From assembly GCA_013178275.1 (NCBI GenBank), contig JABLWZ010000005.1:124001-188000 (forward strand): DNA of 64,000 nt, written 5' to 3'. Positions within the stretch are counted from its first letter, which is position 1. The number at the start of each line of letters is the position of its first letter. The DNA is from Bacillota bacterium. Lineage in GTDB: Bacteria; Bacillota; Ch66; Ch109. A program made the translations under genes and the position numbers. The notes beneath the pieces were generated by a model, which was given only the letters and a program-made list of their open reading frames with translations, did not search any database and was not told the origin of the DNA. Of this stretch, positions 44,214 to 61,903 are shown piece by piece.

Positions 44214-45305
44214 GTGTTAAAAGAAGGCGAGATTAGAATACCATCGGGGTGTGCTATCTCGGGGATCATCAACCGCAACAAGGAATTGATGAACTGCAGC
44301 AACATCGTCAGTTCGATGGCCTTGATGCGGGAGCGTTCCAATGGACTCGGCGGAGGATTCGCGTCCTACGGGATATACCCTGCGTACAGCAAATACTACG
44401 CGCTGCACCTGTTTTACGACAACCAACAGGCCCGCCACCAGGTCGAACCCGAACTACATAAGTCGTTCGACATCATCCACTCGGAGGAGATAAAGACCCG
44501 CCGCACGCGGCAGGTCAGGACCTCCCCCATCATATACCGGTACTTCGCCAAGCCGCGTCTGCTGTTCGAGGACGATAACGAGGAAGACCTGGTGGTCTCG
44601 ATCATCATGCAGTTAAACAGCCAAAACAACGGGGCGTACGTCTTCTCCAGCGGCAAAAACATGGGCAGCTTCAAGGGAGTTGGATACCCTGAGGACATCG
44701 CCGAGTTTTACTGCCTGGAAGACTACCGGGGCTACATCTGGACCGCCCACGGGAGGTTCCCCACCAACACCCCGGGCTGGTGGGGGGGAGCGCATCCCTT
44801 CTGCCTGCTGGACTGGTCGGTGGTGCATAACGGGGAGCTGTCCTCCTACGGCAACAACCGGGCCTATCTGGAGATGTTCGGATACAACTGCGCCCTGCAG
44901 ACCGATACCGAGGTGGTCGCCTACACCTTCGACCTGCTGGTCAGGCGGCACGGGCTTTCCATGGAGCACGCGGTCAACTGCGTCTGCCCGCCGTTCTGGG
45001 CCCAGATCGCCAGGATGGACGGGGAGAAGGCCGCGGTGATGAAATCACTCCGGGTAGTCTACGGCAACGCCCTGCTGAACGGGCCATTCTCCATCGTGCT
45101 GGCCACCGGGCGGGGGATGATGGGACTGAATGACCGGATCAAGCTGCGGCCGCTGGTCGCCGCCACCAAGGGCGACGTGCTGGCGGTCTCCAGCGAGGAA
45201 TCGGCGGTAAGGGTCTTATGCCCCGAGCCGGAGCAGGTCTGGCAGCCGGAGGGAGGGCATCCGGCACTCGGATTGGTGAAGGGAGAGACGAGTTTATGGG
45301 CTTAA
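44214..45305 (+). CDS. Glutamate synthase, glutamine amidotransferase subunit (archaeal-type split GltS)
   Basis: 363 residues. Class II (Ntn) amidotransferase domain releasing ammonia from glutamine. Cys13 in PSGCAISGI is the nucleophile, exposed after removal of a 12-residue propeptide. Further strings: TAHGRFPTNTPGWWGGAHPF, DWSVVHNGELSSYG. GTG start behind GGGGGGTAA. First gene of a five-subunit set; overlaps the next by 10 bases. Confidence 0.9.
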   Translation: MLKEGEIRIPSGCAISGIINRNKELMNCSNIVSSMALMRERSNGLGGGFASYGIYPAYSKYYALHLFYDNQQARHQVEPELHKSFDIIHSEEIKTRRTRQVRTSPIIYRYFAKPRLLFEDDNEEDLVVSIIMQLNSQNNGAYVFSSGKNMGSFKGVGYPEDIAEFYCLEDYRGYIWTAHGRFPTNTPGWWGGAHPFCLLDWSVVHNGELSSYGNNRAYLEMFGYNCALQTDTEVVAYTFDLLVRRHGLSMEHAVNCVCPPFWAQIARMDGEKAAVMKSLRVVYGNALLNGPFSIVLATGRGMMGLNDRIKLRPLVAATKGDVLAVSSEESAVRVLCPEPEQVWQPEGGHPALGLVKGETSLWA

Positions 45306-58334: not shown

Positions 58335-58383
58335 TTGACTGAAGCTGGTAAAACGTTAAAATATTATATAAGCATATACTTAT
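58335..58383 (+). promoter_or_regulatory. arsR promoter and operator
   Basis: TTGACT (58335-58340) and TAAAAT (58357-58362), 16 apart. An inverted repeat ATAAG-CATATA-CTTAT (58368-58383) sits just downstream of the -10, the usual place for an ArsR/SmtB operator, so ArsR likely represses its own operon. Confidence 0.7.
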
Positions 58384-58400
58384 TTAAGGAGGTCGAGTTG

Positions 58401-58787
58401 TTGCTGAAAGGACTTGAGATCATATTTAAAGCCCTGGGGGAAACGACCAGGCTGAAGATAGTCAAGCTGGTTGCCGACCGGGAACTCTGTGTCTGCGAGA
58501 TCGTTGCCGTGCTGGGGACCAATCAGCCCCGGGTTTCGCAGCACCTGAAGGTGCTGAAGGCCGCGGGTATCCTGGAGGAGCGGAAGGAACGCCAGTGGTC
58601 CTTTTACAGGCTGAATCAGGAGTTTAGGGAGGGCCTGGTCAGGCAGTACATCGACTACATGAAGGCTGATATCCGGGACCTGAAGGAGTTTGCCCACGAG
58701 GTGGAGCATCTGGACGGTCTGGCGGGCAACGAGGAGGTCAACGCCTGTAAAAACACTCCGCTACAGATAATAAAAAGGGCCGAATAA
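58401..58787 (+). CDS. arsR: ArsR-family metalloid-responsive repressor
   Basis: 128 residues from TTG 58401, 7 bases after AGGAGGT. Winged helix with RELCVCEIVAVLGTNQPRVS, whose CVC pair is the As(III)-binding motif of classic ArsR, then SQHLKVLKAAGILEERKERQ. Arsenite binding should release the promoter. First gene of a five-gene set (permease, acr3, rhodanese, methyltransferase). Confidence 0.92.
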   Translation: MLKGLEIIFKALGETTRLKIVKLVADRELCVCEIVAVLGTNQPRVSQHLKVLKAAGILEERKERQWSFYRLNQEFREGLVRQYIDYMKADIRDLKEFAHEVEHLDGLAGNEEVNACKNTPLQIIKRAE

Positions 58788-58826: not shown

Positions 58827-59780
58827 ATGTTCGAATGGACTGGCGATCTGGTCGCCTGGAAGCTGCTGGACCTGGTACCCGGGACCCAACTGGGCGAGGC
58901 GGTGCACTACTTCGTCGCCGACGCCCTGAAGATATTCGTCATGCTGGCGCTGATCATCTTCCTGGTGGCGGTTATCAGGAGCTTTTTCCCGCCCGAGAAG
59001 ACGCGCCGGATACTGAGCCACCGGCACCACTACCTGGGCAATATCGCCGCCGCCCTGCTGGGGGTGGTGACCCCGTTCTGAAGCTGCTCCGCCGTCCCGG
59101 TGTTCATCGGGTTTATCGAGGCAGGGGTCCCGCTGGGGGTTACCTTTTCCTTCCTGATATCCTCACCCATGGTCAATGAGGTGGCGCTGGTCCTGCTCTT
59201 CGGGATGTTCGGCCTCCGCATCGCGGCCATCTATATAGTGTCGGGCCTGATAGTGGCGATAGCCGCGGGCCTGGTGATCGGCCGGCTGAAGCTGGAGCGC
59301 CTGGTGGAGGGTTATGTCTACGAGATAAAGATGGGCGAGGTGGAGGCAGCCCAGCTTTCCTGGAACGGCCGATTCAGGTACGCTTACGATTACACCCTCC
59401 AGATTCTGCGCAGGGTCTGGCCTTACGTACTGATAGGCATCGCCCTGGGGGCGGGTATCCACGGGTACGTGCCCGAGGGCTTCCTGGCGGAGTGGGCGGG
59501 GCGGGACAATCCCCTGGCCGTGCCTATCGCGGTGATCCTCGGGGTGCCGCTGTACTCCAATCCCGCGGGCATCATCCCCATCGTGTCGGCGCTGCGGGAA
59601 AAGGGGATGGCCATGGGAACGGTGCTGGCCTTCATGATGGCCGTGACCGCGCTCTCCCTGCCCGAGATGATAATACTTCGGAACGTGCTGAAACCCAAGC
59701 TTATCTCGGTGTTCGCCGGCATCATGGCGGTCGCGATAACCATCGTGGGGTACATCTTCAACTGGCTTATCCCGATTTAG
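58827..59780 (+). CDS. ArsP/YraQ-like (DUF318) permease, predicted selenoprotein (Sec at in-frame TGA)
   Basis: 317 residues if the TGA at 59079-59081 (codon 85) is read as selenocysteine. Both sides are in the same frame and both match one permease: LLGVVTPF, then Sec, then SCSAVPVFIGFIEAG. The family motif here is TPFCSCS, so TGA replaces its first Cys. The downstream half continues with FSFLISSPMVNEVALVLL and several membrane helices, without a ribosome-binding site of its own. A SECIS-like hairpin is at 59096-59111. Family members export organoarsenicals or metals. If not Sec, the gene is a pseudogene. Lies between arsR and acr3. Confidence 0.8.
59082..59111 (+). promoter_or_regulatory. 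Predicted bacterial SECIS element
   Basis: Hairpin CCCGGT-GTTC-ATCGGG (59096-59111) begins 14 bases after the TGA. The apical loop starts with G 20 bases from the TGA, within the 16-37 nt window of bacterial SECIS models. It lies inside the coding frame as required in bacteria. Confidence 0.65.
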
Positions 59781-59809: not shown

Positions 59810-60865
<1,056 letters not shown>

Positions 60866-60907: not shown

Positions 60908-61228
60908 ATGGATAAAACTGAAACGGGAAGCATCTCCAGCGAGGACCTGGCGGCGGCCCTGGAGGCGGGGAAGCCGCTGGTCATCGTAGATGTGCGCCAG
61001 CCGGAGCAGTACCAGGCGGGGCACCTGCCGGGAGCGGTCAATATCCCGCTGGTGGACCTTTGGGACCGCCGTATGGAGCTGGACCCCACCAAGGACATAA
61101 TAACCTACTGCAACAGCGGCAACAGCGGCGGGACAGCCAAAAACGTCCTGCTGTCCCTGGGGTTCCGTTCGGTGTGCAACCTGGAGGGCGGATACAACGG
61201 CTGGAAGGCCTTGAAGGGTCTGGGATAG
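60908..61228 (+). CDS. Rhodanese-like sulfurtransferase
   Basis: 106 residues. One rhodanese domain: VIVDVRQPEQYQAGHLPGAV and active loop ITYCNSGNSGGTA with catalytic Cys. Single-domain rhodaneses near ars genes may handle sulfane sulfur or reduce metalloids. ATG behind GGGAGGTG. Between acr3 and the methyltransferase. Confidence 0.9.
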   Translation: MDKTETGSISSEDLAAALEAGKPLVIVDVRQPEQYQAGHLPGAVNIPLVDLWDRRMELDPTKDIITYCNSGNSGGTAKNVLLSLGFRSVCNLEGGYNGWKALKGLG

Positions 61229-61249: not shown

Positions 61250-61903
61250 GTGTCGATTGATTCTCTAAAATGCGGCTGCGGCGGGAGCAAGGAGTATTTT
61301 GACGATGTCGCGGATCAGTGGGACAGCATGCGGAAGGGTTTCTTTTCGGAAGCGGTCAGGGAAAAGGCCTACGAGGTGGCGGGGATAGAAAAGGGTGCGG
61401 TAGCCGCCGACATCGGGGCCGGCACCGGGTTCATCACCGAGGGACTGATCGGGGCGGGCCTCAGGGTCATCGCCGTAGACCAGTCGGAGTCCATGCTGGA
61501 CCGGATGAGGGAGAAGTTCGCCCGGACCGGCTTGATCGACCTGAGGGTGGGCGAATCGGAGAACCTTCCTATCCCGGACCAGGCGGTCGACTATGTATTC
61601 GCCAACATGTACCTACACCACGTCGAGTCGCCCCCGGCGGCCATCAAAGAGATGTCGCGGGTCCTGAAACCGGGCGGCCGGCTGGTGATTACCGACCTGG
61701 ACGAGCACGGCCATACCTTTCTGAGGACCGAGCAGCACGACCGCTGGATGGGCTTCAAGCGGGAGGACGTGAAACAGTGGCTGTCCGAGGCCGGGCTGAA
61801 GGACGCCATGACCGACTGCGTGGGCCAGAACTGCTGCGCTGATTCCTGCTGCGGGGAGGAGAGCGCCAGCATCAGCATCTTCGTCGCCCGCGGCGTCAAG
61901 TAA
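61250..61903 (+). CDS. SAM-dependent methyltransferase, ArsM-like, Cys-rich tail
   Basis: 217 residues. Class I fold with SAM motif VAADIGAGTGFITEGL and a C-terminal HHVESPPAAIKEMSRVLKPGG. Cys-rich ends: CGCGG near the start, and CVGQNCCADSCCGEE at 195-209. Paired C-terminal Cys is reminiscent of arsenite methyltransferases, and the ars context supports As(III) methylation, but the usual ArsM Cys positions could not be confirmed. GTG start behind AAAGGAGAG. Last gene of the operon. Confidence 0.8.
   Translation: MSIDSLKCGCGGSKEYFDDVADQWDSMRKGFFSEAVREKAYEVAGIEKGAVAADIGAGTGFITEGLIGAGLRVIAVDQSESMLDRMREKFARTGLIDLRVGESENLPIPDQAVDYVFANMYLHHVESPPAAIKEMSRVLKPGGRLVITDLDEHGHTFLRTEQHDRWMGFKREDVKQWLSEAGLKDAMTDCVGQNCCADSCCGEESASISIFVARGVK

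Follow-up and report, generated by a model that had tools for sequence, protein, structure and literature searches.

The locus raises the question of why a permease gene in an ars operon is interrupted by a TGA, and whether this codon ends the protein, marks a damaged gene or is read as selenocysteine (Sec). Within the window, by which we mean the whole 64,000-nucleotide stretch of Bacillota DNA that was analysed, the open reading frames 58827-59081 and 59100-59780 lie in the same frame on the forward strand and, just as a sequence-only reading had stated, are parted by the TGA at 59079-59081 alone. Translated across this codon the gene reads ...LLGVVTPF-U-SCSAVPVFIGF..., and the complete product of 317 amino acids (58827-59780) gives a single continuous match to the ArsP_1 family (PF03773), from residue 22 to 312 and from profile position 2 to 293 of 294 (E 2.2e-79). 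The score of 267.1 bits, as compared to a gathering score of 32.3, makes it a full-length member of the family.

The TGA is codon 85 and occupies the first Cys position of the motif TPF-C-S-C-S. That this is a conserved Cys, as proposed from the sequence, is borne out by the relatives; the aligned column is Cys (TGT or TGC) in all of the 80 nearest genome_contigs relatives, and in a 40-row alignment it is invariant as Cys/Sec. The motif TPF[U/C]SCS is present in every Sec copy and in the same 80 relatives. Taking together the reading frame, the Pfam match, the alignments and the other copies with a TGA, among them a second one in the same genome, it is very probable (about 0.93) that this is a functional selenoprotein gene, in which UGA codon 85 is read as Sec to give the full-length permease.

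Decoding of the TGA

The sequence-only reading had made its proposal depend on a Sec system in the genome, and genes of such a system were found. The genome bin to which the window belongs (estimated contamination 6.4%) has tRNA-Sec (selC; 66.6 bits; ARAGORN calls it tRNA-SeC(tca)), selA (616 bits) and, adjoining selA, selB (336 bits, or 366 with the neighbouring piece; domains checked). Most probably SelB and the Sec-tRNA read the UGA at codon 85, aided by a hairpin just downstream, and the resulting 317-residue ArsP_1 permease would carry Sec in TPF-U-S-C-S.

The UGA could instead be read as Cys or as another residue, or two polypeptides could be made by termination and restart, in which case termination at codon 85 would yield a product of 84 residues. 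It fits with this that the relatives have Cys at the position and that a GTG is available downstream, at 59100. Speaking against these readings are, however, the presence of tRNA-Sec, selA and selB, and the adjacent acr3, which ends in TGA as a true stop, so that the genetic code is not globally changed. The same holds for the lack of any Shine-Dalgarno-like stretch before the GTG, in agreement with the earlier remark that the downstream part has no ribosome site, and for the six codons from the TGA to the GTG (SCSAVP), which are conserved at the protein level in both Sec and Cys copies. We regard both variants as very unlikely, and Sec remains the preferred reading of the codon.

A search for other TGA-carrying members, which the sequence-only reading had advised, was also successful. 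A second permease gene on another contig of the same genome (G000:C12:34950-35900), in a separate ars operon, has its TGA at the same codon, and is 88% identical to the window permease in amino acids and 83% in nucleotides. When 399 genomes of the phylum were scanned with a pattern, about 100 matches came up, a subset of which had DNA that was read in frame, and TGA permeases were seen in three more genomes, G031 and G247 (one family, 76-77% identical) and G060 (another family, 64.5%), neither family being that of the window's genome. All three also have a tRNA-Sec, with 75-77 bits. Most of the other matches to the pattern turned out to be unrelated sequence when read in frame.

Downstream of the TGA, the comparison between the window gene and the C12 copy gave a dN of 0.056 and a dS of 0.677 (dN/dS about 0.08), so the stretch that would go untranslated if the TGA were a stop is under strong purifying selection. 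A pseudogene, nonsense mutation or sequencing error happening on the conserved Cys is hardly credible, as the sequence-only reading had held for a chance mutation: Cys is the form most often met among family members and one step takes its codon to TGA, but the TGA is common to five genes in four genomes at exactly the same codon, two of them here on different contigs, with the codons behind it under selection, so neither damage nor error explains it.

The hairpin downstream of the TGA

Directly after the TGA the RNA can be folded into a putative bSECIS (59084-59124, forward strand) with a lower helix of 5 bp, the apical stem CCCGGU/AUCGGG and the loop GUUC. The hairpin with a G-starting loop described from the sequence does exist, and its loop starts at the 21st nucleotide, but as a fold taken alone it is weak and not much above chance. 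Every copy folds in the same way, with a 5-bp lower helix, a 6-bp apical stem and the loop 21 nt past the UGA. The 11 pairs are kept in all copies, and G060 shows one compensatory change, from C-G to G-C.

The constraints given for a bSECIS are an upper stem of 4-16 bp, a G in the first two loop positions and a loop 16-37 nt after the UGA (PMC13188914). This geometry is seen in four of the five copies; in G060 the minimum-energy loop is AUUU, and its terminal pairs U-A and G-U have to open for the G rule to fit. The agreement is weak when compared to codon shuffles of the same peptide, about 4-9% of which fold just as well into a hairpin with a G-loop, and 4 of the 80 Cys relatives have a G-loop hairpin in their minimum-energy fold. 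Folds of this kind are not rare enough among shuffles and Cys relatives for the hairpin to count as decisive evidence, and it was rejected as such. Constraint on the synonymous sites behind the TGA was also set aside as only suggestive, being lowered in the three closer Sec copies and not against G060.

Evolution of the Sec form

A tree of 87 proteins was built by a quick maximum-likelihood method, and three changes have to be assumed on it for the Sec state, at least two of them forced by well-supported branches. G060 is placed apart from the other four Sec copies, and the Cys relatives L018 and L019 are found among the closest group. A single origin of the Sec state is rejected on account of these three changes and the interspersed Cys relatives. 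Interchange between Sec and Cys is usual in selenoprotein families, and judging from the tree the two seem to interchange at the position of codon 85 as well. The permease of L018, the best-matching relative from another collection (79% identical), has Cys, which implies that the family can do without Sec. All plasmid relatives of the permease are less than 60% identical. Automatic annotation splits Sec genes of this kind, and their spread is therefore underestimated.

Operon context and substrate

The operon in the window is read from the forward strand in the order arsR, arsP(Sec), acr3, rhodanese and methyltransferase. The first gene encodes an ArsR/SmtB metalloregulator (58335-58787; NF033788 over the cut-off, start codon uncertain), and the permease gene is followed by the Acr3 arsenite efflux transporter (59810-60865; TIGR00832, 460.6 bits as compared to a cut-off of 282.8) and by a protein with a rhodanese domain (60908-61228; profile matches). 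The SAM methyltransferase that ends the operon (61250-61903) has a Cys-rich tail, CVGQNCCADSCCGEE, and is distant to ArsM-type enzymes, whose models were matched below cut-off only; it reached no NCBIfam cut-off.

ArsP of Campylobacter jejuni is an efflux permease for MAs(III) and roxarsone(III), reported without export of inorganic arsenite (PMC6205960). It resembles the window permease in being an ArsP-type permease encoded together with acr3 in an ars operon, but the latter has Sec at the conserved Cys and its substrate is a predicted one. Because the Campylobacter protein moves trivalent organoarsenicals out of the cell and is found together with Acr3, a trivalent arsenical is by analogy the most likely substrate. 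This would be a compound of As(III), whether organic or inorganic, exported beside Acr3 under the control of ArsR, and Sec85 and Cys87 may serve as soft ligands for thiophilic trivalent metalloid species in the transport path. In the predicted structure (pLDDT 75.7, moderate) residue 85 is located in a break between the helices 68-81 and 86-98, and the motif would then sit between two transmembrane half-helices. A search of the PDB by sequence gave no significant match to the permease, and in the fold comparison the model showed sub-threshold similarity only, to TRAP/INDY-type transporters. In the setting with arsR and acr3, an exchange of Sec and Cys could show what part Sec plays.

The permease could also transport another thiophilic metal (Cu, Zn, Hg or organometals), as has been proposed for two related families, SO_0444 and SaoE. 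Such a substrate would agree with Sec at codon 85, and the alternative competes with the substrate step only. The nearest NCBIfam models are indeed those of SaoE (NF040736), the best match, homologous over residues 42-315, and of the related SO_0444 Cu/Zn efflux permeases (NF033936; E 2.2e-30). The scores of 126 and 106 bits are, however, below the cut-offs of 325 and 300, so the window permease is a member of neither family, and both copies of the window's genome are found in operons with arsR and acr3, a setting that also distinguishes them from SO_0444. Another metal is an unlikely substrate, to which we still give some weight, and an arsenical is preferred.

Relation to known selenoproteins

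An inventory from 2026 holds 119 prokaryotic selenoprotein families and lists a Sec form of SO_0444 (UxC, WP_014809615.1) as annotated in GenBank (PMC13188914); its UxC site and that of the window permease would be equivalent. The same inventory already lists selenoproteins linked to metalloids, namely arsenite methyltransferase, arsenate reductase, a mercuric transport protein and the Sao proteins. They share with the window permease the use of Sec in the handling of metals or metalloids, but belong to other protein families, none being an ArsP permease. A term search of the inventory found no Sec-containing ArsP permease, while mention in other selenoprotein papers is possible. The scores far under the SO_0444 and SaoE cut-offs, together with this lack of ArsP, make the permease a new Sec-containing subfamily; a Sec form has already been annotated in the related SO_0444, so it is not the first. 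The sequence-only reading had called a Sec-containing metalloid permease a striking use of selenium, of which the Sec part is supported and the novelty is lessened by these earlier cases. An ArsP-family membrane permease is in this way added to the few transporters known with Sec.

A second selenoprotein candidate

The gene order around the other Sec copies differs from that in the window. It is arsR, Thioredoxin_3, a small thioredoxin-fold protein, arsP(Sec) and acr3 on C12, arsR, Thioredoxin_3 and arsP(Sec) in both G031 and G247, and Thioredoxin_3, arsP(Sec), arsR and acr3 in G060. The small thioredoxin-fold protein, encoded directly before the C12 permease (L106:7594-7932; G000:C12:34593-34931), has 112 residues and a TGA at codon 21, in the context GCGU. 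A homologue at L018:840-1187 is 46% identical, with a TGA that aligns with this codon (GxGU), whereas a homologue in L020 has Cys. The protein itself reached no Pfam or NCBIfam cut-off, and the Cys homologue is just over that of DUF1462 (29 as compared to 25 bits). Similarity of its predicted model to thioredoxins and to the structure 1xg8 (SA0789) was seen with low confidence, no match reaching E <= 0.001. It is probably a second, undescribed selenoprotein, and points to a small Sec-containing thioredoxin-fold family absent from the libraries searched.

In L018 the thioredoxin-fold partner keeps its Sec while the permease has Cys. One may speculate that some Sec-using Bacillota have a selenium-based module for arsenical export, where the GxGU protein would bind or reduce a trivalent arsenical and pass it to the Sec of ArsP, but we consider this improbable.

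Other frames with a TGA were also inspected. A split glutamate synthase frame at 45131 was rejected as a further case, all of its domains lying after the TGA, and the other split frames checked in the window gave no family match. Downstream of acr3, an FmdE-domain/zinc-finger protein (L106:10073-10825) has its TGA upstream of the likely true start and is therefore probably not a Sec candidate. The same genome has a third PF03773 permease, which is of the Cys form (TPFCSCS; G000:C12:32166-33107, L106:5164-6240 on the minus strand); its gene adjoins that of a PadR-type regulator and points away from the operon with the Sec-containing arsP.
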